Virus record (IMG/VR): IMGVR_UViG_3300029319_000077
Span: 1-51,907 of that record
Strand: one strand, 5' to 3'
DNA length: 51,907 nucleotides
From: a virus
Part shown: one piece after another, positions 1 to 51,907 of the stretch
Layout: the number at the start of each line of letters is the position of its first letter
How positions within the stretch are numbered: position 1 is the first letter of the stretch
Made by a program: the position numbers and the translations under genes
The notes under the pieces: model-generated
What the model was told of the DNA's origin: nothing
Databases searched by the model: none
The model's input: the letters and a program-made list of their open reading frames with translations, nothing else

Positions 1-160
1 CATTTTTGGAAAAACATTGAGCCTTACCAACAATGGTTACGAGATCTTTGTAATCTCGGTCCGGGTTAGTTAAGCAAGGTGAAATATATTTCCAGTGCGC
101 TGCACAACTAGCCAAACCCAAAATCGCCAATAGGAATAGTAATTGTCGTAGTTGTATCAT
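1..160 (-). CDS. csgG: CsgG curli secretion channel, N-terminal part (cut by window edge)
   Basis: Fifty-three codons read from an ATG at 160 to the left edge. The peptide starts MIQLRQLLFLLAILGLASC, a textbook lipoprotein signal with lipobox LASC, so Cys19 would be lipidated and the protein sent to the outer membrane. It was not obvious as an ORF because it is truncated and overlaps the 3' end of csgF by about 50 bases. The last residues, FSKN, reappear as the first four residues coded at the right edge (51212-51907), where the body of CsgG lies. Joining on this overlap gives about 280 residues; E. coli CsgG has 277. CsgG forms the nonameric outer-membrane pore that exports curli subunits. 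I infer one gene cut by linearisation. Confidence 0.8.
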   Translation of the reverse strand, partial: MIQLRQLLFLLAILGLASCAAHWKYISPCLTNPDRDYKDLVTIVGKAQCFSKN

Positions 161-566
161 CTAAGCTGTTATAAATTTCTAAAGTTATTGTAGACCCGTC
201 TGAGGTCCAGGTTATTATATTATCAAATAAAGTAAAAGAACCTTCCGTTGCTGGGTTTTCTCCAAACAATTGTTCTACTATTTGTCTGCTTATTTGAGCA
301 AAAATGCGCGACTCAAGGTTTTTAGTAAATCTACTTATAACAGAATTTTCTTCATCTCTTTTTCTTTGTTCTTCCAAGGCCCGAAGATCTGCAAGAAGTT
401 GTTCTTTCCGGGTGAACTCTTGGTTCTCAATAGTCATATAATGCGCGGATGTTCCAATACCGCTAAAACTAGGAGACTTAAATTGAAATTTTATTTCATC
501 TGCTTGTAAATTATTTACACAAAAAAGTGTAATTAGTAAGGTCCAATTAATCTTTTCGTTGGTCAT
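108..566 (-). CDS. csgF: CsgF-like curli assembly factor
   Basis: About 152 residues from the ATG at 566; an in-frame start at 584 would add six residues but gives a poorer signal peptide. The N-terminus has a hydrophobic stretch ending LQA before DEI, a likely Sec cleavage site. The mature start, IKFQFKSPSFSG, matches the conserved CsgF segment (FQFRNPNFGG in E. coli) that plugs into the CsgG pore. The C-terminal beta-rich region with ITLEIYNS and TTTITIPIG also fits the family, and length is close to E. coli CsgF (138). It directly precedes and overlaps csgG, the same order as in the bacterial csgEFG operon. No csgE is visible. Role inferred: couples subunit secretion to extracellular nucleation. 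Confidence 0.85.
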   Translation of the reverse strand: MTNEKINWTLLITLFCVNNLQADEIKFQFKSPSFSGIGTSAHYMTIENQEFTRKEQLLADLRALEEQRKRDEENSVISRFTKNLESRIFAQISRQIVEQLFGENPATEGSFTLFDNIITWTSDGSTITLEIYNSLDDTTTTITIPIGDFGFG

Positions 567-897
567 CTCTTTCTGCTTTTGCAATTTTATTAGTATCTAT
601 TAAATTTGGAACACCTAACATTGTTTTTAACAATGTGTCTTGTCTTATTATTTCGTTGTCGACAGATCTAACCCGATCTATAAGAGCAACTAAAATACTA
701 TGTTGAGCCGCAATCTTAGATTGCAAACGTTCTTCCATTGCATCTATTTTAGCATTAATTGACTCATCGGTTGTTGAGATAGCGGTTTCTATACCACCCA
801 TAATTTTATTAAGTAATTTATTAAGCAACCAACCCAACCCAATAAGGCCAGTTACAGGCACCCCAACCTCATTTATAAGCTGTATAACTGTTTCCAT
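547..897 (-). CDS. Small membrane protein with coiled coil, possibly holin-like
   Basis: 116 residues. The N-terminal third contains one hydrophobic segment (about residues 12-33, VPVTGLIGLGWLLNKLL), followed by a charged, probably coiled-coil region with heptad-like spacing (MEERLQSKIAAQHSILVALIDRV). The 3' end overlaps the csgF start by 20 bases, suggesting translational coupling. One membrane span plus a coiled coil occurs in phage holins, antiholins and tail-associated proteins, but I do not recognise the family. Its place directly before csgF could mean it belongs to the secretion module or to the preceding structural block. Confidence 0.6.
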   Translation of the reverse strand: METVIQLINEVGVPVTGLIGLGWLLNKLLNKIMGGIETAISTTDESINAKIDAMEERLQSKIAAQHSILVALIDRVRSVDNEIIRQDTLLKTMLGVPNLIDTNKIAKAERDDQRKD

Positions 898-10973: not shown

Positions 10974-11402
10974 TTATGAGCCTTCAACTATCATTTTTTC
11001 AAGTCTTTGACTTCTTTCGCCAACTTGTTTAGCCCAACGACTATCTAGCATTTCAACACCAGCAGTTTCGTAATCTTCAGCTTCCATTGCCGCTAAAAAT
11101 TTTTTGAATTGTAAAAGTCTAGTGAGACCAAGATTAAAACACATATTGATAATAGCTCTTTGTCTTACGTCGTTTAAATTATTAAACCAGGGAAATGTTG
11201 ATCGCACTTCTTTTTCGCATTCCTCTATATCATTGGCAAGCATATATTCAGCTTCGTCTTCAGACAATCCTCGAGAAAATCTATCGTCACATAGACGCCC
11301 TATGCCTATTGTCCAGTATCCTTCGCTGTCTTGGTAGCAATTAGCACGGAACCCTTCGTCCCTTTTTAACTCTGCTACAAGTTTATTTTTATCATAACTC
11401 AT
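10974..11402 (-). CDS. Endolysin, GH24 (T4 lysozyme-type)
   Basis: 142 residues. The start carries the GH24 signature: Glu16 in LKRDEGFR, Asp25 in YQDSEGYW and Thr31 in WTIGIG, with the same E-x8-D-x5-T spacing as T4 lysozyme. The C-terminal half (VRQRAIINMCFNLGLTRL, WAKQVGERSQRLEKMI) also matches. No signal peptide or membrane span, so it needs a holin for access to peptidoglycan. The ATG overlaps the holin stop by one base, a typical lysis cassette. Confidence 0.93.
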   Translation of the reverse strand: MSYDKNKLVAELKRDEGFRANCYQDSEGYWTIGIGRLCDDRFSRGLSEDEAEYMLANDIEECEKEVRSTFPWFNNLNDVRQRAIINMCFNLGLTRLLQFKKFLAAMEAEDYETAGVEMLDSRWAKQVGERSQRLEKMIVEGS

Positions 11403-11878
11403 TAGTCTCCATCCTTGCCATTTGAGGCACCAAAATAAAAAGATATAACAGCGCTGGCCAAACCTCCAAGATAACCTAACACAAGGTTAATTAATGCTTC
11501 AGAGTTTTGCTCCGGTGGCTGTAAAGTTACAAGAAATATATATCCTAAAAAACCTGCAAGGGTGGCAATACCCATTATCCTGGTTGTCCAATCTTTAGAA
11601 AAATTTTTTCTTGCGTCTTGTGTATCTTCAACTTCAAGTTTGAAAATATCAACCTCAAGCTCTTTCATTTGCAATTCAAATTCGTTTTCTGCTTCTTTGA
11701 GTTTAAGCATTTCGGCGGGTGTTGCTTCTCGGACTGCCTTTTCAATAGCGGTAGGATTATTAGGCACTCCAAGCTTTTCAGCAATCATGCTGGCTGCCGC
11801 TCCTCCAAGAGGACCACCAAGAGCCTGTCCTAAAGTTGGTGCTAAGGTGCCAACCAACCCCTTGATTTTATTTAACAT
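11402..11878 (-). CDS. Holin, 3-TM type family
   Basis: 158 residues. A Gly/Ala-rich N-terminal segment (TLAPTLGQALGGPLGGAAAS), a central charged helix with Asp-Ala-Arg-Lys-Asn (DTQDARKNFSKDW), and two strong C-terminal membrane segments (ATLAGFLGYIFLVTL and LVLGYLGGLASAVISFYFG). This matches the GTA/phage 3TM holin family I know by its DARxx-x-W signature before the last two spans. It is coupled to the endolysin. Role: forms the inner-membrane hole that releases endolysin. Confidence 0.8.
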   Translation of the reverse strand: MLNKIKGLVGTLAPTLGQALGGPLGGAAASMIAEKLGVPNNPTAIEKAVREATPAEMLKLKEAENEFELQMKELEVDIFKLEVEDTQDARKNFSKDWTTRIMGIATLAGFLGYIFLVTLQPPEQNSEALINLVLGYLGGLASAVISFYFGASNGKDGD

Positions 11879-18103: not shown

Positions 18104-19828
18104 TTACTCTTCCTTCAAGCTTGCTATACCTGCAACGCCTGCAACTGGTATAAAAGAAAACATTTGATCTTGGAAATGTTTTTGTCGTGCTTTAGTTTTG
18201 AAAAAATCTTTTTCAAAGTCGGCATCGGTTTGCTTAATAACCTTCAAGCCGCGTTTTTGTAAAATATCGATGACATCTTGGCTAGCATTTTTAGGCACAA
18301 TAGCACCTGCAAATTCATCAAAGCCGACAGCTCGGGTTGGTTTAGCCTCAAAGTATTCAACATTGCGGGTAGCATTCTTGATAAATATATCTTCGAGATC
18401 ATCTAAAAAACCATATGGAGGGTCATTGTATTTAAACTCATTGCGCGTAAATTTTTCTAGCTCGTCAAAGTCAATGTTTTGATTGTAAACATCTTTTAAT
18501 AATTTTTGGTCAAATTTTTTGCCATCTTCAATGGCGATACCAATATCGTTAAGCAAGTTATTGCCGACGCGTGAATAAAATAGGTTGTCTGATCCAGGGA
18601 AGTTATATTGAACCAGCAAATCATCAATTTGCTCACCTAAATCCATTGCGCTAGGTGGTTTATCAGTTAATCTTCCGCGTTCAGCTCTTACGGCTGGAAA
18701 ATCGGCAAACTCTTTAGACATAATCGCTTTCATACGAGCTGGCGAATAGCCACCAGCAAAACCTTCGCCACCGCGTTGCGTTTCTTTTATCATGCTATTA
18801 ACTGCGTTCTCAAGAGTGTAGGGTTTGGTAACTATGGTTTGTTCAAAGTCGTCAAAGTATTGCAGCACGCCGTCTTGGGAGAGAAAACGATCTTTTTCTT
18901 TTTGTCTCCATTTATAAAAATCTTTGGTTATTTTAAACCCAGGATCAGCGGTAGCTTGTTTGAAGAATGGCGAGTTTGGATTAAGTGCAGCCAAGCCGCT
19001 GTCAAAATTAACCATAGCCATGCTTCTTGGTCCCTCAAGAAAGTCGTCTACTTTAAATCCTTGATCTTCTAAAAACTTAAGTTTTGCTAGATCCGAGTCA
19101 AAAAACCTGTCAAGCTCATCTATTCTGTTTTGAGGTTGAAATAAATTATTTTTTTGTAGATTGCGTAAAGCATATTGACCTTGTTCAAGTGTTTCAGTTT
19201 TGTTGTATTTATCAGATAAAGCTTTGTACTCTTTGGTTAGTTTCGACTCAGATCCTTCTTTGGCTAAACGAATTTTCTTTGGCGCTCTAGGTGTGTAGGC
19301 GTCAGCTGAATATATTTTATTGCGAGGATCTATACCTGGATCAAATTTTTCCGGCTTGCCAATAAGTTGAATTTTACCAAACCCTTTGAGCGGAATATCA
19401 CTTTCAGTTACCGCTAGACTTGGTGAGGGTATTCCTCCCATTGCATCAAAACTGCGGATTGCTTCCTCGGAGGTATTGTGAATGAACATTAGGTTTTTTT
19501 TATCTATATTGTCAGCAAGTGTTTCAATACCTTTTTTAGCAACTGCTTTAGCTGGTGCTCCCGCCGCTCCAAGAAAATCTAAAGAGGATAAAAGCATTCC
19601 GAGTTTGTCGCCCTCCGCTTTCGCAAGTTCGCCACCTAGAAAAGGCACAAAAGAAGCAATGTTGCGTAAAACATCGCGTCGACGCATAGCGGGAGATGGC
19701 ACCATTGGCCTGGTAAGATAAGACATAACCGGACCAAGTCTTTCACTTGGTGCTTGGGGCGGTAGAATAGCGCCAAGATCAGGAGATGGTTCAAATATAT
19801 CTATGTTGTCGAGTGTTTCTTGGGCCAT
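18104..19828 (-). CDS. Large protein with polyvalent-protein-type module
   Basis: 574 residues. N-terminus MAQETLDNIDIFEPS repeats the tag of the next gene. Residues about 113-185 contain FIHNTSEEAIRSFDAMGG, PSPSLAVTESDIP, GFGKIQLIG and YSADAYTPRAP. The C-terminal part has YFEAKPTRAVGFDEFAGAIV and VIDILQKRGLKVI. This combination is one I know from the N-terminal region of large polyvalent proteins carried by phages and conjugative elements and thought to be delivered into the recipient cell with DNA. Exact domain name not certain. A hydrophobic end (FIPVAGVAGIASL) could aid membrane contact. Likely an ejected protein. Confidence 0.65.
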   Translation of the reverse strand: MAQETLDNIDIFEPSPDLGAILPPQAPSERLGPVMSYLTRPMVPSPAMRRRDVLRNIASFVPFLGGELAKAEGDKLGMLLSSLDFLGAAGAPAKAVAKKGIETLADNIDKKNLMFIHNTSEEAIRSFDAMGGIPSPSLAVTESDIPLKGFGKIQLIGKPEKFDPGIDPRNKIYSADAYTPRAPKKIRLAKEGSESKLTKEYKALSDKYNKTETLEQGQYALRNLQKNNLFQPQNRIDELDRFFDSDLAKLKFLEDQGFKVDDFLEGPRSMAMVNFDSGLAALNPNSPFFKQATADPGFKITKDFYKWRQKEKDRFLSQDGVLQYFDDFEQTIVTKPYTLENAVNSMIKETQRGGEGFAGGYSPARMKAIMSKEFADFPAVRAERGRLTDKPPSAMDLGEQIDDLLVQYNFPGSDNLFYSRVGNNLLNDIGIAIEDGKKFDQKLLKDVYNQNIDFDELEKFTRNEFKYNDPPYGFLDDLEDIFIKNATRNVEYFEAKPTRAVGFDEFAGAIVPKNASQDVIDILQKRGLKVIKQTDADFEKDFFKTKARQKHFQDQMFSFIPVAGVAGIASLKEE

Positions 19829-33782: not shown

Positions 33783-34017
33783 CAAAACAAAACGAATACC
33801 TTCAACCTATCAAGAAAAACTACAACCGCAAGAAGTCATTGAACTTTACACAAGACTAACCCTGCATCAACAAGCAGCGATGATTAGACTTATGGCAAGA
33901 AACCTTGTTGTTAAAACTGACAATGAAGATTTATATGGTTATGAGTTAGACTTTGATGTCGTTGGCGCTATGATTGAAGCCAAGCCTTCAGGGTCAGACG
34001 ACGTTGTCGAAACCTAG
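33763..34017 (+). CDS. Hypothetical protein, 84 residues
   Basis: Starts MLNKLFNKTKRIPSTYQEKL, then QEVIELYTRLTLHQQAAMIR, and ends EAKPSGSDDVVET. Overlaps the upstream gene by 20 bases and converges with the late gene at 33994, sharing 24 bases. Helical, no known domain. It marks the border of early and late blocks. Confidence 0.6.
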   Translation: MLNKLFNKTKRIPSTYQEKLQPQEVIELYTRLTLHQQAAMIRLMARNLVVKTDNEDLYGYELDFDVVGAMIEAKPSGSDDVVET

Positions 34018-36456
34018 TCTTTGGGCTATCTCTCTATCTTTTTCATCCGGCAAAACACTGGGTGATAGAGCTAGCCCCAAGTCCGGCTCTGCAAACAAAT
34101 CTGCTTCTACATCAGGTATATCTATTTGATTGAGCCTATCCTGTAACGCAGCAATATTTATTTGTGGCTCCTCAACTATCGGCGCTTGTGGCACTGGTTG
34201 AAATACTTTATCCATTATTTCTTGGCTACCTATAGACTGCATAAATCTGCCTTGATTGGTCTGTAATTTTTCAGCTGGAACCTCTGATTTAGACTCATGT
34301 ATGTCAAGCGGCTCTACACTATCAGCTGTCAAGCCACTTACAACAGCTCTTACCTCTTCTCTTATGTCCGGATTAGCCTGGTATATTTGAAACAATCTTC
34401 TTGTATGTTGACCAAAACTTTGTGGATCGTATGCAGCTTTTTCTGCACCCTCAGTTAGCCAATCAACAAATTGTTTGTTTGTTAAAAGTTTTGCTGAAGC
34501 ATAAGGCCCAACCAGTCCACCCAGTCCATATTCAAAACCTTCTGATCCTAAAAATCTTCCGCCAAGCAAATCACCAGTCAAAAGTCCTAGCGTTCCTAAC
34601 GCATACCCTACTCTTGCAGTACCGGATGGATTAGCCATTTGTGCTGCTGACTTGCCAATTCTGTCAACAGTAAAGACAAGGTTGTCTAAAGAAGGAACCA
34701 AGTCTTGATATTCAGTTCCTTTGAATAAAGCTTCTTTGGCCTCTTTACTTAATTTGTTCCAATTAGTTAAAAATGTTTTTGGCGAAAATCCTTGTTCAGC
34801 AATATATTCAGCTCCATCTTTCAAAGCCTCCTCTCCTAGCTCTGCTGCGGTTGAAACTCCTGGAGTTGGTAATCCCATTCTACCAAGCATGTATCCTGAT
34901 AAAACGCTAAACTCTTCCGGCTTAAGTTCACCTCTTAATTTAATTAAATCTTCACCACCATCTCGAGCACCACTGAGAACATACTTTAAAGCATTGGTTG
35001 ATCTTACTTCACCCTTTTTGATTATTTCATCTATATATTTCATGCCACCAGCTTTTGCTGAATTTTCGCGCACAAACTTATTTGCAGACTTATACATCTT
35101 TAAAGCATTAGGATTTTCTGATCTAGCAACCAAAGCATCAAGATCTTTTGTAACATAGCCTACAAGCTCTTTTACTTTTCTTTGTGCACCTGAAAGAGCG
35201 CCCTGGCTTTCAGCCCTTCTTAGGTCATGCATTACTGAGGATCTAAAATCTTTTAGATTGTTATAACTTAACACACCCTCTTTTGCATCAGACAATACTT
35301 TTTCTGCTTGACGTAATGCTGTATGAAGCTCAGGTTTTCCGGTAGCTGTTTTAGATCTAGCTAAATATTTATTAACAAATTCAGTTGTGTGCTTTGCGTC
35401 AGAAACTAAATTATCAGGAATAAACTCGTTTACTTTGTTATACATACTTGTAACCTGGTTGTCGTATCTTACTCTTGCTGCTCTTGCAGAGTTCATTAAT
35501 CTTTCAGCAGCTTCAGAGGATGTTCTTACACCGCCATATTGTTCGGCCAACTCTTTAGCAAAATTGTCAATCTGATTTATAGTTTGTGTTGCATTGTCAT
35601 GCATAATTTTTGTTGAGGTCGGAGCTGCTGCTAACGCTGACTCAGCTAAATTTAAAACAGGGTTTGCAGTTACTTGTCCTGCTGTTGGATCTGTTATACC
35701 GGCTGACTCCATTCTTTGTTTTGCAATTTTTGCCTCAGGTGTTAAAGAACCAGTTGCATATCTGATAGGTTGTCCAGCAACATACTTAACGCCTTTTACT
35801 ATTTTATTTATAACAGGTCCACCAGCTGCATTTATTGTAGCTGTTGTGCCAACATCAAATAAACGCTCCATACCAGTTCTGCTATCTTCAGTCTCGCCAA
35901 AGAAATCTAAAATACCTATGTATGCCTCTCTTGCAGCAGCACTTCCAGCTCCTTCTCCAGCAACTACGCCAGCTGTCACACCAACCGGACCAGCGGGTGC
36001 GCCGACAATACCACCGCCAATAGCACCACCAATAGCACCGACAGTTTCAGCTATTTCAGGACCCACATCTAATAAATCTCTACCTGTTGGAAAAGGTATT
36101 CCAAACAATCTAAAGTCTTCATCAAATAAAGTAAGCTGTCCTGTTGCTGGGTTTGTAAAAACGAAATTACCTCTACCAAATTTTGCAGATCCATTTTCAG
36201 GATCTAAAATCTCAACGGGTAATGCGTCCGGAAAATACTGTTGTAATGTTGCTAACCTATCTTCAGGTTTTTGGGCTGCGCCAACAGCTGCCCGAACATT
36301 TGCGGGTGCACCAGTTCTTGTATCAACTGAATTTACAATTCGCTCCTGGGCGATTTGATCTATCAATGCATCCTCATAATTTTCTGATGAAGGTTGTTCG
36401 CCTTCAATCATTGAAAGCAAAATATCGTTGTCTAGTTGTTTAAAACCATCATTCAT
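33994..36456 (-). CDS. Large internal virion (ejection-type) protein
   Basis: 820 residues. Long helical regions (about 300-500: LHTALRQAEKVLSDAKEGVL, YNNLKDFRSSVMHDLRRAES) and a Gly/Ala-rich hydrophobic segment near residues 138-172 (TVGAIGGAIGGGIVGAPAGP) and another near 625-650. Such proteins in P22-type and pelagic podoviruses are packaged in the head and ejected to bridge the cell envelope. It is the last gene of the late block. Family inferred from position and composition. Confidence 0.7.
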   Translation of the reverse strand: MNDGFKQLDNDILLSMIEGEQPSSENYEDALIDQIAQERIVNSVDTRTGAPANVRAAVGAAQKPEDRLATLQQYFPDALPVEILDPENGSAKFGRGNFVFTNPATGQLTLFDEDFRLFGIPFPTGRDLLDVGPEIAETVGAIGGAIGGGIVGAPAGPVGVTAGVVAGEGAGSAAAREAYIGILDFFGETEDSRTGMERLFDVGTTATINAAGGPVINKIVKGVKYVAGQPIRYATGSLTPEAKIAKQRMESAGITDPTAGQVTANPVLNLAESALAAAPTSTKIMHDNATQTINQIDNFAKELAEQYGGVRTSSEAAERLMNSARAARVRYDNQVTSMYNKVNEFIPDNLVSDAKHTTEFVNKYLARSKTATGKPELHTALRQAEKVLSDAKEGVLSYNNLKDFRSSVMHDLRRAESQGALSGAQRKVKELVGYVTKDLDALVARSENPNALKMYKSANKFVRENSAKAGGMKYIDEIIKKGEVRSTNALKYVLSGARDGGEDLIKLRGELKPEEFSVLSGYMLGRMGLPTPGVSTAAELGEEALKDGAEYIAEQGFSPKTFLTNWNKLSKEAKEALFKGTEYQDLVPSLDNLVFTVDRIGKSAAQMANPSGTARVGYALGTLGLLTGDLLGGRFLGSEGFEYGLGGLVGPYASAKLLTNKQFVDWLTEGAEKAAYDPQSFGQHTRRLFQIYQANPDIREEVRAVVSGLTADSVEPLDIHESKSEVPAEKLQTNQGRFMQSIGSQEIMDKVFQPVPQAPIVEEPQINIAALQDRLNQIDIPDVEADLFAEPDLGLALSPSVLPDEKDREIAQRLGFDNVV

Positions 36457-46260: not shown

Positions 46261-46557
46261 TTATTTGCCGTAAAGACCTTTGCCTTTGTTTTTAGATGGG
46301 CTCATGCTAAAACCAAATTTAAGAGCTTTTTTAGACATAGCTCCGCCGCTCATCATTTTTTTGACGCCAGCTCTACCGCCGCCCATCATTTTCTTCACAC
46401 CTGATCTGCCTCCTGGAACACCGCCAGCGTTCATTTTCTTCATGCCTGATCTACCGCCAGCAGCCATTTTCTTCATACCTGATCTTCCGCCAGGCATACC
46501 ACCAGCAGCCATTTTCTTCATACCAGCTCTACCGCCTTTTTTGTTTTTTTGTTTCAT
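46261..46557 (-). CDS. Repetitive basic protein, GGRSGMKKM repeats
   Basis: 98 residues from ATG 46557; a longer frame to 46584 lies inside the upstream gene. The core consists of five repeats of the type G-G-R-(S/A)-G-(M/V)-K-K-M-x-x-G-G, with no acidic residue across most of the length. This resembles condensing or DNA-binding proteins, or a set of repeated packaging tags. Five bases upstream of the gp4-like gene. Function unknown. Confidence 0.65.
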   Translation of the reverse strand: MKQKNKKGGRAGMKKMAAGGMPGGRSGMKKMAAGGRSGMKKMNAGGVPGGRSGVKKMMGGGRAGVKKMMSGGAMSKKALKFGFSMSPSKNKGKGLYGK

Positions 46558-47092
46558 TTTGTAAATGCCTCCGTTTTTCAACAAATTCGTAAAAAGTTTC
46601 TTTATCCCAATATTTATAATAGCCTTTTTCTTCTAACTCTTTTGAAGCAATATTGAGCTTATCAAGAGCTTGAATAAAAACCATCAAATATGGTTCATCA
46701 TAAATAGGTTCAAAGTCACTATCTACTATAGTTCCCTTGCTATCATGCTCAATGTGAAAACCCATGGCCCATAAATTTTGTCTGACCAAAAAATGATTGA
46801 GAACCTGAATTCTAGCATCAAAAACTTCACAAGAAGTTTCAAGGTTAAAATCACAATAAATTAAAACATCATTCTTTTTGAAATCTGTTTGATATATGTG
46901 ATCAACCAGGTCATCCCAATCTTCTTCACATCCGCTTTCTATTATAACTCTTTTTTGTTGCCAGGCTTTTTTTGCATAAGGACATACGGGCAAACCGTTG
47001 CAAAGTAAGGTTTTTTTCTCTATTACAGCTTTGGACCAAGCTCTTAATTCGCGGTTTAGTTCTTGTTGTTTTAATATCTTTACATACTTCAC
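46529..47092 (-). CDS. Hypothetical protein, 187 residues
   Basis: MKYVKILKQQELNRELRAWS, then EKKTLLCNGLPVCPYAKKAW and EEDWDDLVDHIYQTDFKKND. Several Cys in NGLPVCPYAKKA resemble a redox or metal motif ('C-P-Y/F-A') but are not diagnostic. Remaining part is alpha/beta. Position among small basic late genes. No family recognised. Confidence 0.65.
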   Translation of the reverse strand: MKYVKILKQQELNRELRAWSKAVIEKKTLLCNGLPVCPYAKKAWQQKRVIIESGCEEDWDDLVDHIYQTDFKKNDVLIYCDFNLETSCEVFDARIQVLNHFLVRQNLWAMGFHIEHDSKGTIVDSDFEPIYDEPYLMVFIQALDKLNIASKELEEKGYYKYWDKETFYEFVEKRRHLQNETKKQKRR

Positions 47093-47352
47093 TTTGATGT
47101 AAAGGTCTTTACATTAGTTGGTTTTCCACCAACACCTTGTTTCACTGACCTCTTTCTCCTTACTGCTGATTTTATCTGAGATTTGGTCATTCTGCTAGCT
47201 TTAGCAGCAGGCACACATTTTGGATAGCCTCTTTTTGATTTTTTTGCACCAGGTCTTCCGCATTTTTTAAAGCCGCCACCTTTTTTTGGAGCCGATATAT
47301 CAACCCAATTTTCATTAAACCATTTAGTAAGGCCACCTTTGGTTTTGGCCAT
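47089..47352 (-). CDS. Small basic protein, DUF5872-like
   Basis: 87 residues. KWFNENWVDISAPKKGGGFK, then KCGRPGAKKSKRGYPKCVPA and MTKSQIKSAVRRKRS match a small family widespread in marine phages and large viruses (DUF5872-like, from memory). Very basic with two Cys. Nucleic acid binding or virion internal protein suspected. Confidence 0.7.
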   Translation of the reverse strand: MAKTKGGLTKWFNENWVDISAPKKGGGFKKCGRPGAKKSKRGYPKCVPAAKASRMTKSQIKSAVRRKRSVKQGVGGKPTNVKTFTSK

Positions 47353-47696
47353 TATGAAATCCTTGTTTTTTTCCTTTTAGAATTAAGCATAGATCCGCAA
47401 CCTCTACCCTGAACCATTACAGCGCCACCATTTTTCATGTAGCCCATTTTGTTTCTGACTCTTGTCGGAAGCTTGCTAAGACCTTTATTTCCTTTAGGAA
47501 TTGGCTTTAAATTTTTTTTCACGGCTCCTCCGCTTGCTTTTGAACCCTTGTATTTACCACCCATTTTTTTGTATTCCTTAACCATGTAAGCGTTTGCATA
47601 AGCTGATGGGTAAACATCAAACTTTGCTTTTGCTTTACTTTTTGCTTTTTTATACAAACTTGGGTTTGCAACATTTTTTGGTATATTATCTGCCAT
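47352..47696 (-). CDS. Small basic protein with conserved SAYANAY motif
   Basis: 114 residues. NPSLYKKAKSKAKAKFDVYP, then SAYANAYMVKEYKKMGGKYK, is a conserved pattern in proteins paired with the 47089-47352 type. The C-terminus contains MKNGGAVMVQGRGCGSML, again the M-x-x-G-G motif. First gene after the cyclase (12 bases apart). Likely virion or DNA-associated. Confidence 0.7.
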   Translation of the reverse strand: MADNIPKNVANPSLYKKAKSKAKAKFDVYPSAYANAYMVKEYKKMGGKYKGSKASGGAVKKNLKPIPKGNKGLSKLPTRVRNKMGYMKNGGAVMVQGRGCGSMLNSKRKKTRIS

Positions 47697-47707
47697 AATT
47701 TATTTTA

Positions 47708-49459
47708 TCACTTTTTTACTGTCCATATTTCTACAAGTTCCTTTATACCCTTCATTGATATAGGTTGCAACTTTATTAAAGGCATGTTTGTTGCTTGTGC
47801 GGTGTTTTTAGCTATTACTATATTTTTGCCAACATCCTTGCAACTACTTTCGCATCTTGCAGCAAGATTAACGTCTGAGCCAATAGCAGTATAATCAAAA
47901 CGTGTATCGCTTCCCATATTACCTATTATCGCTTCTCCTGAGTTTATGCCTATACCTATCTCTATCCCTAGATCGGCTTTCTCCATATCTTCCTGTATTT
48001 TTAATGCTGCTGCTATGGCTCTATTCTCATGTTCAGGCAAATCTATAGGTGCCGAAAAAATTCCCATGCAGGCATCTCCAATAAATTTATCAATCATGCC
48101 GCCATTTTGCTGTATAGCATTTACTTGGATCGTTAATGCCTTGTTCATAATCTTAGTGACTTCTTCAGGCTCTAGTCTTTCTGACAAGGATGTAAAACCA
48201 CGCACATCGGTAAATAGAAAGGTGCAATACTTTCTCTCACCACCTAGTTTCAAAAGTTCAGGATTATCTTGTAATTGTTTGACTTGTCTTGGATCAAGGT
48301 AATGTTCAAACTGTTTTTTGATCTCTCGACGTAATTTATATTGTTTTTGGAAGTTTATATAGTATGCAATGGTCGAAACTAGTATTTCAGATACAAAAGT
48401 CCATGAAAAATCCAATAAAATACCTTTTTGAACGCTAAAAGCTCCTGAGAGGCCCGTGGTGAAGAGCAAAATTGCAACGAGACCTAAACCCTTCCCTATG
48501 CTAAGAAAATTGATTGTGAGCCAAACTGAAGCGACAAAAATTCCCAAAATCAATAATTCTGCCAATAAATGCCAATCAGGTATGTATGGGCTGTCTGCTA
48601 TTAAAATTGACTCAGCTAAAGCCGCTTGTATTTTATGTGCCTCTAACAATCCGACCGGAGTTGCAACTTTTGGATATACTCCTTTTGCTGTTACGCCTAC
48701 AAAAACAAATTTATCCTGGACATTCATTTCGCTTAAAGTTGTTTGTGGTGTATCGACCCAGCTAATCCATTTGCGGCCATAACTATCTGTTTTAACTGGA
48801 GGTATTCCTCTTATTGATATTTCTGATATACCATTATCATTAGTTTTTATAATATAAGTTTGCACACCAAATATAGCTTTATATACTTGTGTGCCAAAAC
48901 TTGGAACCCAGCCATCAGGCGTTTTATATAACAAAGGGATTTGTCTCAGTAAGCTATCGACATCAACAGGAGCTGACACAACACCCTGTTCAGTTGACGC
49001 AGCAATTTTTGGTATGTTTGGAAGGTGTCCTTGTAAATTTATGCCTGGAACATCTTTACCTAAAACCACTGTTCCTGTTGGTGTTGGATATTCCTGGTTT
49101 GCATATTCAAAGGTAGCAACAACGGCCGGCGGGTTGTTTTTAAGAATTGTCGCAAACTTATCATCACCGCCAAACCTATCTTCATCTACAAAACTTAATA
49201 CCCAACCTACGCCTATTGCTCCATTTTGCAAAAGTTGTTCATGTATTTCTGCTAGCCTGTTTCGCGGCAAGGGCCAACCGCCTTCAGATTGTATAAGCTC
49301 TTCTGTTAAATTTAAAACAACAAAATTTCCTGAGGGCGCTGGTTGTTCTATTAAGTAGTCAAATATTTTTAGTTTTAAAACCTGTAAAGGAAAAATTTGT
49401 AAAACAAGCGGTATGGCTAAACAAACATAAAGTAAAAAAGGCAGCGCAAATTTTTTCAC
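47708..49459 (-). CDS. CHASE2-domain class III adenylate cyclase
   Basis: 583 residues. A first membrane segment (FLLYVCLAIPLVL), then a CHASE2 sensor domain (about 30-285, periplasmic: FVVLNLTEELIQSEGGWPLP, DKFVFVGVTAKG), three further membrane spans (about 297-318, 324-343, 350-370) and a cytoplasmic cyclase domain (about 405-580). All catalytic residues are present: metal Asp418 (FLFTDVRGFT) and Asp462 (KFIGDACMG), Lys458 and Thr524 (DYTAIG) for adenine recognition, Asn531 and Arg535 (VNLAAR). Class IIIb type, so probably an active cAMP synthase. It follows the FecR gene with a four-base overlap. Confidence 0.93.
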   Translation of the reverse strand: MKKFALPFLLYVCLAIPLVLQIFPLQVLKLKIFDYLIEQPAPSGNFVVLNLTEELIQSEGGWPLPRNRLAEIHEQLLQNGAIGVGWVLSFVDEDRFGGDDKFATILKNNPPAVVATFEYANQEYPTPTGTVVLGKDVPGINLQGHLPNIPKIAASTEQGVVSAPVDVDSLLRQIPLLYKTPDGWVPSFGTQVYKAIFGVQTYIIKTNDNGISEISIRGIPPVKTDSYGRKWISWVDTPQTTLSEMNVQDKFVFVGVTAKGVYPKVATPVGLLEAHKIQAALAESILIADSPYIPDWHLLAELLILGIFVASVWLTINFLSIGKGLGLVAILLFTTGLSGAFSVQKGILLDFSWTFVSEILVSTIAYYINFQKQYKLRREIKKQFEHYLDPRQVKQLQDNPELLKLGGERKYCTFLFTDVRGFTSLSERLEPEEVTKIMNKALTIQVNAIQQNGGMIDKFIGDACMGIFSAPIDLPEHENRAIAAALKIQEDMEKADLGIEIGIGINSGEAIIGNMGSDTRFDYTAIGSDVNLAARCESSCKDVGKNIVIAKNTAQATNMPLIKLQPISMKGIKELVEIWTVKK

Positions 49460-50553
49460 GAGCCTTGTTTAATTGTTATTGTTGAAGAGGATCCGGAGTT
49501 AATTTGAATTATTTTAGAGACACCATCTTGTATAAAAATTACAGTGTACGCTCCATCGCCATCAACATTTACCTCAGCATAGTGTTGTACATTTCTTATA
49601 AGTTTTACATTGCCTCCTTGTAGTATGGTGGTTATCTGCGTGTCTAAGTCTTGACCCAGTTGCGTCCCCGTTATGTTTATAGATCCTACCATTTGAGATA
49701 ATTCGTCTTGTTCTTCTTGACTGTCAAGAGCGTCAATAGCATCTAACAAGTCTTCGAGAAAATCGCTTGCTAATAAATCAATGTCAAGCTCAGAAAAATT
49801 TATTGACTCGTCTTCAGCAAGTAAATCCTCATCTAAAAAATCAACTTCAAGATCTGCAAAATCAAGATAATTATTTTGTTGTTGTATTTGTTGCTCCTGA
49901 ACTTCTTCTATTTTTTTTGGTGGAGATACAATGAGCATGTTATCTATAAAGTCCAGGGTCAAATCTAACGTAACTGGTTTTGACGGGTTTTGCTCATAAA
50001 CCGTTGTTGTGGTTGCCTGATAAGGTTTATTAAGAACCACTTGACCAGTTGCGGTGGACACAACAATTTCTCCACTAGCTTTACCATCAAGACCTGGTAA
50101 AAGTATTATAAGACTGGCCCCAGTTTCTTCGACAACCGTGCAAGTAAAATCGGTTCCTCTTATAGCTATATCAGCGGTTGGTGTTTTTAAAGATATATTT
50201 TCTTTGTCAAGTTTGTTTATATTGCCGCTTACAAAACGAATAGTCCCGCTAGCAAACTTAAGAGCCATTTTACTCTTTGTTGGGTTTGGGTCGTATATAT
50301 ATTCATCTATAAGCAATTGTGAATTTTCGGTTAATCTAACTATAGACTCGTCCAAAAATGTTATTGCTATTCGACCTTTTCTTGTTCTTACATCATCGTA
50401 AGAATTTATGTCAAAATCTAAAACAGCCGGATACGGTTGATCTCTTAAGATTTGACCGTATCCTTTAAGCTCTGTAATGTCGCCTATATTGTCAGCATGA
50501 AGTGGTAGTACCACCATCATTTTGCACAATACAAATCGTAGAATTGCTCGCAT
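49456..50553 (-). CDS. FecR-domain periplasmic protein
   Basis: 365 residues. ATG at 50553 gives a signal peptide (MRAILRFVLCKMMVVLPLHA) cleaved before DNIGD; it overlaps the curlin gene by 62 bases. The FecR domain (about 50-155) shows DDVRTRKGRIAITFLDESIV, LTENSQLLIDEYIYD, KFASGTIRFVSG and TADIAIRGTDF. Residues 215-285 are extremely acidic. FecR-like genes next to CHASE2 cyclases are common in bacteria; the protein may be a periplasmic ligand or scaffold for the cyclase sensor domain. Confidence 0.85.
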   Translation of the reverse strand: MRAILRFVLCKMMVVLPLHADNIGDITELKGYGQILRDQPYPAVLDFDINSYDDVRTRKGRIAITFLDESIVRLTENSQLLIDEYIYDPNPTKSKMALKFASGTIRFVSGNINKLDKENISLKTPTADIAIRGTDFTCTVVEETGASLIILLPGLDGKASGEIVVSTATGQVVLNKPYQATTTTVYEQNPSKPVTLDLTLDFIDNMLIVSPPKKIEEVQEQQIQQQNNYLDFADLEVDFLDEDLLAEDESINFSELDIDLLASDFLEDLLDAIDALDSQEEQDELSQMVGSINITGTQLGQDLDTQITTILQGGNVKLIRNVQHYAEVNVDGDGAYTVIFIQDGVSKIIQINSGSSSTITIKQGS

Positions 50554-51211
50554 TTGTTGTAAGTGATAACCAATCTTTTGCTAGTGTTGAAGATTGTGTT
50601 ATATCAATAGTGTTTGAGCTACCATCTAAATCCAAATTAAAATAACCTGAGTCGCTTGAGGTTGTGCCTGCGTATCCGCTACCTGCAAAATTGATAGTGT
50701 TGCTATCACCGAAAATATCTAATATATTTGTAGCATTTTCATAATCAATATCAAAATTTAATGTATTGCTGTCACCATCAATAATCCAGTCAAGATCTAA
50801 ATAGGAAGCATTGTTTGCTTCAGCTATTTCAATATCAAAAGTGTTAAGTCCTCCAGTGACTTCTATATCTAGGTCAGCATAATCTGCTGCATAAACATCA
50901 TTGCTATTTAGTAAAATATCAAAAGTGTTACCGTCACCTTGAAAATCAAACAATCCATTTATGTAATCTGAATTGATACCGTCTGATCTAAAAATATTAT
51001 TAGAACCTATTTGGTTTATTTCGAGCGTCATGTTTAATCCGTCAAGCGAAAGAGCAGTCATTGTGTTTGATACAGCTGAAGTCCCTCCAATTAAGTTTGA
51101 CGATCCGAGCTGTTCTAAATTTATAGTCGCGTTAGATCCACTTTGATCTACATATATTTCGTTATCAGCTACAGCTGAAAGCGATAAAAAAGTTAAAAGT
51201 AATTTTTTCAA
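50492..51211 (-). CDS. Curlin-repeat protein (CsgA/CsgB-like)
   Basis: 239 residues. A signal peptide (MKKLLLTFLSLSAVA before DNEI) is followed by repeats of the curlin type: IYVDQSGSNATINLEQLGSS, MTLEINQIGSNNIF, then degenerate units with GDGNTFDI, GGLNTFDI, GDSNTLNF and GDSNTINF. The regular G-x-x-N spacing is that of curli amyloid strands. Later repeats have Asp in place of Gln. It starts immediately after csgG and overlaps fecR. Likely a secreted fibre subunit or nucleator. Confidence 0.85.
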   Translation of the reverse strand: MKKLLLTFLSLSAVADNEIYVDQSGSNATINLEQLGSSNLIGGTSAVSNTMTALSLDGLNMTLEINQIGSNNIFRSDGINSDYINGLFDFQGDGNTFDILLNSNDVYAADYADLDIEVTGGLNTFDIEIAEANNASYLDLDWIIDGDSNTLNFDIDYENATNILDIFGDSNTINFAGSGYAGTTSSDSGYFNLDLDGSSNTIDITQSSTLAKDWLSLTTNASNSTICIVQNDGGTTTSC

Positions 51212-51907
51212 TTATTCCTCCGTAAATTCCCAAAAACCTTTTTTTTGTCCTTGGTAAATAATATCAACCACCGCAGTTTCTATGGCTGCTTGTAAAGCTA
51301 TAGATTTACTTTCATTCATTACATTTCCACTTTCAAGCTCTACGAGCTGAGTTGAGTCTGCAACAAACCTAAAAAAATCATTAGATAAGCCAACTGATAA
51401 AATGGTTTTACTAGAGAGATTTTCCATTAAAATTTCTCCAGTGCTTACAGATACTATTCTAACAGAAATAGTAACAGAGTCCTCTCGGTATTGTTTTGAG
51501 TTGCCAATCCCTAACGTCCTGGCTCCCAAACCGCCGCTGAGAAGATTTGTATTATAGTCGACGACACCGCCTTCGAAAATAAGGCCAGCAAACAGTAGTG
51601 GCATTTGTTCAGTAGACTCATTAAATTTTTCTCGTGTAGATCTTATTATTTGTCTTTCACGAGTAACATGATCTATGCCACCTCTTTCAACAACTCTAAA
51701 AAATTTGCTTTGCTTAATAGCTCTAATCAAATAAGTTTCGGGAGCTTGTGTTATTGCTGTTGAAAAAGAAGCTACGTTATCTGCGCTTTTTCTTTGTCCT
51801 GTAAGATCGCCAAATTTATAAACAGCGACAACAGGCTTTTGTTTTGCAGTGGGTACATTTTTAATTGCTGAAGTAACCGGCTCGTTTATAAAAGCATTTT
51901 TTGAAAA
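51212..51907 (-). CDS. csgG: CsgG curli secretion channel, main part (cut by window edge)
   Basis: 231 codons read from the right edge. FSKNAFINEPVTSAIKNVP, KPVVAVYKFGDLTGQ, VASFSTAITQAPETYLIRAI, SKFFRVVERGGIDHV, RERQIIRSTREKF, GGLGARTLGIGNSKQYRED and VSTGEILMENLSSKTILS match E. coli CsgG throughout. The constriction Phe (Phe56 in mature E. coli CsgG) is kept in ASFSTA, while its Asn55 neighbour is Ser and the Tyr51 position appears changed. Joined to the left-end part (1-160) it makes a full outer-membrane lipoprotein channel of about 280 residues. Confidence 0.93.
   Translation of the reverse strand, partial: FSKNAFINEPVTSAIKNVPTAKQKPVVAVYKFGDLTGQRKSADNVASFSTAITQAPETYLIRAIKQSKFFRVVERGGIDHVTRERQIIRSTREKFNESTEQMPLLFAGLIFEGGVVDYNTNLLSGGLGARTLGIGNSKQYREDSVTISVRIVSVSTGEILMENLSSKTILSVGLSNDFFRFVADSTQLVELESGNVMNESKSIALQAAIETAVVDIIYQGQKKGFWEFTEE

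Follow-up and report, generated by a model that had tools for sequence, protein, structure and literature searches.

Why does a phage carry a curli export system next to an adenylate cyclase? The question is raised by IMG/VR virus record IMGVR_UViG_3300029319_000077 (51,907 nt, 51.9 kb), analyzed over its full stretch (positions 1–51907, the window). An initial annotation had assigned to the minus strand, over the junction of the record ends, five genes for CsgF, CsgG, a curlin-like protein, a FecR-domain protein and a CHASE2 adenylate cyclase, and family matches and coordinates locate all five there. It overlooked a sixth member directly upstream of csgF. In order of transcription, the cassette comprises:

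547–897, minus strand: sixth cassette gene, 116 aa, hydrophobic N-terminal segment followed by a coiled coil
108–584, minus strand: csgF (PF10614, E 5e-17; phrog_35372, E 4e-35)
1–160, minus strand: 5′ part of csgG, with signal peptide and lipobox, over the circular junction (match to the phage CsgG hidden Markov model (HMM) at 2–160)
51212–51907, minus strand: main part of csgG, outer-membrane curli export pore (PF03783, E 4e-45)
50492–51211, minus strand: curlin-like export substrate, 239 aa, with a conserved C-terminal Cys (Curlin_rpt in family members)
49456–50553, minus strand: FecR-domain protein, predicted periplasmic (PF04773, E 5e-12)
47708–49459, minus strand: CHASE2 class III adenylate cyclase (PF05226, E 2e-28; PF00211, E 3e-17)

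Transcription of csgG would run from about 160 to 1 and then from 51907 to 51212. The csgG and curlin-like genes abut, the curlin-like and FecR genes overlap by 62 b, and the FecR and cyclase genes by 4 b. As the initial annotation also said, the cassette has head genes on one side and neck/tail genes on the other, and its strand suggests late expression.

Scans of viral contigs gave approximately 200 loci (the best-scoring 80 per scan, hence biased to close relatives), in which gene order was read with phage-specific HMMs. The order csgF-csgG-FecR-cyclase was fixed on one strand in 133 viral loci. A curlin-type gene lay between csgG and FecR in 158/158 testable loci, and a homolog of the 116-aa gene lay upstream of csgF in all 148 loci with room for one, often as two tandem copies. 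In most loci, the FecR gene overlaps or almost touches the cyclase gene; in about a quarter of the loci, the gap between the two could hold a second gene. Three further loci (L073, L060 and L058) have the cyclase gene inverted, yet still in place adjoining FecR, and the linkage therefore outlives a shared transcript. All but three of the loci with FecR but without the cyclase stop at or near a contig edge. A chimeric assembly was ruled out, because the block occurs in >130 contigs and the upstream junction recurs in the independent contig L343, where a homolog of the 901–1209 gene is followed by the 116-aa gene, csgF, csgG and FecR, as in the window. A scan of viral contigs with the 901–1209 gene itself gave curli genes in 2/80 loci.

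Comparison of these loci shows a linked set of predicted CsgG, CsgF, a repeat-rich substrate, FecR and a CHASE2 cyclase, with its order kept on three or more phage backbones. The window belongs to the first of these: its terminase, portal and major capsid protein are homologous to those of the HTVC023P-type podoviruses, to which it is related. Its terminase is 63.7% identical to that of 023Pt_psg01 (a genome of Wittmers et al.), 59.1% to that of HTVC027P and 56.6% to that of HTVC023P; where compared, the portal is 48–53% and the major capsid protein 57–62% identical to those of the same three phages. The second backbone is T4-like. The third is represented by G153, a 54-kb contig with the cassette, whose portal is closest to those of CRP-3/HTVC033P/HTVC115P-type phages, which we take to be the HMO-2011 group; G153 also matches a T7-like internal virion protein family. 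By these matches, an HMO-2011-like backbone is a third carrier of the cassette.

The initial annotation regarded the linked set as undescribed, which was wrong. Wittmers et al. 2022 (PMC9599517) reported it as csgF-csgG-csgA/B-FecR-(csgA/B)-adenylate cyclase, with a small 'HK' gene ahead, in podo- and myoviral pelagiphages, the former comprising nine HTVC023P-type genomes. They detected the module at all 65 GOV2.0 stations, with transcripts in metatranscriptomes, and described its affinity as alphaproteobacterial and its transfer from one phage family to another. Zaragoza-Solas 2020 (PMC7029224) and Buchholz 2022 (PMC9004378) described csgF and csgG in myophages, with proposals of sibling capture, uptake and a pinholin-like role in lysis. 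Fiber display, superinfection exclusion and uptake, each suggested in the initial annotation, had already been proposed in these three papers. The genes, their order and the phage group of Wittmers et al. are all as in the window, which differs in lacking a second curlin gene between FecR and the cyclase, in carrying the cassette between head and neck/tail genes whereas 35 relatives carry it just upstream of terL, and in a leader protein for which family search does not indicate a histidine kinase. HTVC008M (a Pelagibacter phage) and Melnitz (a Methylophilales phage), both T4-like, have csgF-csgG-curlin-FecR-[extra gene]-cyclase on one strand; they differ in an unrelated backbone, protein identities of 30–45% and the extra curlin-type gene before the cyclase. 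The E. coli curli system (csgBAC/csgDEFG) shares CsgG, CsgF and, probably, a curlin-repeat substrate, whereas the phage set adds FecR and the CHASE2 cyclase, with no CsgE found. New beyond PMC9599517 are the near-invariant gene order, the non-kinase 116-aa gene, the lysis-locus siting, the third phage lineage and the cyclase without a canonical receiver.

We favor, with slightly better than even confidence, the reading that the cassette is a horizontally mobile, late-strand phage curli (type VIII secretion) module with a FecR-CHASE2 envelope-sensing cyclase arm. Late in infection, the phage would equip its host, which has no such pore, with an outer-membrane CsgG-CsgF pore, and the curlin-like protein would be secreted as a surface fiber, probably amyloid. 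As FecR/PupR domains do with outer-membrane receptors, the periplasmic FecR domain would read the state of the pore or fiber and pass it to the CHASE2 domain, turning on cyclic AMP (cAMP) synthesis. The fiber would most likely change the surface or aggregation of the infected cell near lysis, such that competing phages are blocked or new hosts held near. This signaling route is proposed because of a match of FecR to PupR, bacterial FecR-CHASE2 precedents and the barrel-fed cyclases of S. meliloti, described below.

The initial annotation had called the export pore complete, and in profile searches both CsgG and CsgF matched their families (PF03783 and PF10614). Against the PDB, the phage CsgG profile reaches E 1e-69 with the solved pores 3x2r/6l7a, which are of the E. 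coli CsgG type, and the window CsgF is 36–42% identical to CsgF of HTVC008M and Melnitz. The ends of the window (1–13 vs 51895–51907) share an imperfect 13-b overlap, with 12/13 positions matching, one mismatch and no exact end repeat. Merging the overlap joins csgG into one open frame with a signal peptide and lipobox (LGLASC), and the corresponding csgG stretch is uninterrupted in two relatives (L140 and L146). A second, frameshifted csgG was ruled out, as there is one gene spanning the record ends. The single csgG frame and the 12/13 end overlap are what would be expected of a circular or circularly permuted genome, and the record is therefore probably one.

The curlin assignment draws on the family and on structure prediction. 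Curlin_rpt was recognized in 22/39 members of the curlin family (best 6e-6), and the AlphaFold2 (AF2) model of the window protein (pLDDT 82) has regularly repeated beta strands.

The AF2 model of the FecR-domain protein matches the cell-surface-signaling domain of PupR (6ovk, prob 1.0), and also resembles a 'cell surface anchoring domain' (5ix9; 66 columns, 1.2 Å). The nearest bacterial FecR domains are mostly within very large open frames, and 5/20 of their alphaproteobacterial neighborhoods hold a cyclase matching the phage model. In Campylobacterota, CHASE2 cyclases cluster with FecR-domain proteins (PMC9239204), and in Burkholderia a CHASE2 kinase is paired with a FecR/LysM protein (PMC5192318). 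As in the phage cassette, an extracytoplasmic FecR-domain protein lies beside a CHASE2 membrane sensor; these bacterial clusters differ in not having been described with a curli export system, and the phage cassette in having no cAMP phosphodiesterase or TPR partner within it. In S. meliloti, the signal to which CHASE2 cyclases respond is sensed via the outer-membrane barrel NsrA (PMC13001267). The FecR C-terminus was also considered as a curlin repeat, for which profile comparison gave no support.

FecR could instead be a structural plug or anchor and not a sensor, acting as a periplasmic gate in place of CsgE or tethering the fiber at the pore. The likeness to 5ix9, the very large frames of the nearest bacterial domains and the failure to find CsgE would fit such a role. 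The PupR signaling domain was matched as well, however, and in the window and most relatives there is overlap between the FecR and cyclase genes; we consider a plug or anchor quite unlikely.

By hydropathy, the cyclase has a single hydrophobic segment at the N-terminus and as many as three in its central part. The catalytic residues that the initial annotation described as complete are all intact: the metal-binding D418 and D462, the base-selecting K458 and D522, and the transition-state N531 and R535. These six positions are 97–100% conserved across 150 phage homologs, and cyclase activity therefore appears to be under selection. The Melnitz cyclase (L003, 11499–13550) has Ser at both the transition-state Asn and the base-selecting Asp, the sole such case among the 150, and may be inactive.

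Several results weigh against the favored reading. The window curlin-like protein scores 15.5 bits against Curlin_rpt, below the Pfam cut-off of 20.7, and its AF2 model gave no significant PDB match in Foldseek (E. coli CsgA fibril, E 1.5). CsgE (PF10627) was found in 0/8 phage records, with a positive E. coli control. The FecR-CHASE2 and FecR-CsgG contacts are putative, and Melnitz-infected cells showed no clumping (Buchholz et al., PMC9004378). A SAR11/Pelagibacter host for the window phage is probable by analogy with HTVC023P-type podoviruses, whose cultured members infect Pelagibacter, and thus is drawn from relatives only. A domain binding cyclic nucleotide monophosphates (cNMP) was absent from 138/147 Pelagibacteraceae genomes and from 20/20 phage records, so that a cAMP receptor within the phages, considered as a candidate, was not found either.

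This last result weakens the suggestion in the initial annotation of cAMP signaling to the host, as the canonical receiver is missing from those genomes and records. An intact and almost invariant adenylate cyclase active site is what would be expected if the enzyme raises host cAMP and reprograms transcription through CRP-type regulators. The cNMP-binding domain gave matches in only 9/147 Pelagibacteraceae genomes (3 convincing, 6 weak), however, and class III cyclases in this family are essentially confined to cassette contigs binned into two metagenome-assembled genomes (MAGs). We judge this explanation very improbable; it could still apply in other hosts, such as OM43.

An open pore for uptake of nutrients or cofactors for phage replication, with FecR reflecting iron or siderophore import, has been suggested (PMC7029224 and PMC9599517), and would be consistent with the failure to find a CsgE gate. 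Conserved CsgF, curlin and cyclase would not be needed for it, and FecR-domain proteins beside CHASE2 sensors need not be iron regulators (PMC5192318, PMC9239204). An uptake role is improbable in our view.

The 116-aa gene is probably the published 'HK' of Wittmers et al., by position and copy number; HTVC008M and Melnitz each have two homologs upstream of csgF. A histidine kinase at 547–897 received no family support from Pfam or NCBIfam, and among the family members tested there was no match to HisKA/HATPase or any other kinase family. Weak matches occur only in relatives, to YvrJ in 3/12 and to a PHROG holin in one. The hydrophobic segment of the window copy falls below a strict transmembrane threshold, and from its sequence the product looks like a short membrane-plus-coiled-coil protein.

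The surroundings of the cassette raise a further explanation, in which the CsgG-CsgF pore, either gated in the outer membrane or pinholin-like, acts in lysis control by aiding the timing or completion of cell opening; the 116-aa protein would be its holin-like partner and the FecR-cyclase pair a timer. A lysis role has been put forward for Melnitz (PMC9004378), whereas the text of Wittmers et al. (PMC9599517) mentions neither lysozyme, holin nor endolysin. The window contains a pair of lysis genes about 10 kb from the cassette:

10974–11402, minus strand: phage lysozyme (endolysin; PF00959, E 5e-19; phrog_7 endolysin)
11402–11878, minus strand: 158-aa holin-like protein with two transmembrane segments, adjoining the lysozyme gene (no Pfam match)

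Of the complete cassettes, 77 are flanked by 1.5 kb or more of sequence on each side; among these, which are not phylogenetically independent, 41 have a lysozyme and/or holin-like homolog on the same strand no more than 1.5 kb away, upstream or downstream (45 at a laxer threshold), and the other 806 kb of those loci yielded no such homolog. Of 70 homologs of the 158-aa protein, 68 are same-strand neighbors of cassette genes, at distances of no more than 800 b. An M15 peptidase as an alternative lysis gene beside the cassette was not found. In 35 HTVC023P-type contigs, the cassette is at the lysis locus, 1.2–2.5 kb upstream of terL. In the window, the lysis pair occupies that spot without the cassette, which compared with these relatives has therefore changed position.

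The flanking genes, the siting near terL and the weak YvrJ/holin matches of the 116-aa family would all fit lysis control. This explanation leaves the curlin-type gene, kept in every testable locus, unaccounted for, and the window lysis genes are distant from the cassette. In addition, CsgG is an outer-membrane pore, whereas depolarization needs the inner membrane, and the siting may reflect a tolerated insertion site. We regard lysis control as unlikely, though not negligible. A combined circuit, in which FecR senses the CsgG pore or fiber and the CHASE2 cyclase coordinates fiber display with lysis through cAMP and a non-CRP receptor of host or phage, in a cassette that moves among phage families and prefers the lysis locus, is offered as a speculative and distinctly unlikely variant.

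The mobility that forms part of our favored reading was examined in approximate maximum-likelihood trees. The window cyclase groups with the G153 lineage (support 0.935), whereas the window csgG and FecR group with other contigs. These groupings differ, and the cassette itself is therefore probably mosaic.

In bacteria, csgG was found in 2/147 Pelagibacteraceae genomes, both times on contigs with the phage-type cassette. A wider search for a bacterial operon with the full set used narrow peptide patterns, by which an ancestral operon could be missed, and its matches were mostly on short contigs resembling binned phage DNA. GTDB species genomes of two Pelagibacter MAGs (L206, L219) and a Maricaulis MAG (L207–L208) carry complete or partial phage curli cassettes, on contigs that are probably binned phage DNA; automatic annotation would credit these MAGs with curli and adenylate cyclase. 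L210 is on a Sphingobacteriales MAG contig of 142 kb, a length that fits a T4-like phage genome. L217 and L218 are clear non-cassette bacterial matches, without FecR and cyclase nearby. A csgG match in 'Salmonella phage' OR851715, a 1.5-kb unannotated contig labeled UNVERIFIED, was left out of the phage cassettes.

Curli are missing from the tested genomes of SAR11, whose cells are among the commonest in the ocean; cNMP-binding domains are very rare there, and class III cyclases essentially absent. The phages would therefore supply a secretion-and-signaling capability that the host lacks. The question of phage curli is sharpened by a conserved cyclase without a canonical receiver, a universal small non-kinase membrane protein and recurrent siting at the lysis locus.

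Upstream of the cassette in the window are a phrog_7595 gene, phrog_8198 and the major head protein (from 3156), and downstream are DUF5872-like genes followed by virion structural and tail proteins. Elsewhere, 33994–36456 encodes an 820-aa protein (phrog_36512) without a Pfam match. A 574-aa late-strand protein (18104–19828) contains a PBECR5 (barnase/EndoU/colicin-like nuclease) domain (PF18814, E 2e-21) and is possibly a virion-borne effector. A small basic repeat protein of 107 aa (46261–46584), with GGRSGMKKM and GGRAGVKKM units, is close to the DUF5872-like basic proteins at 47089–47696.

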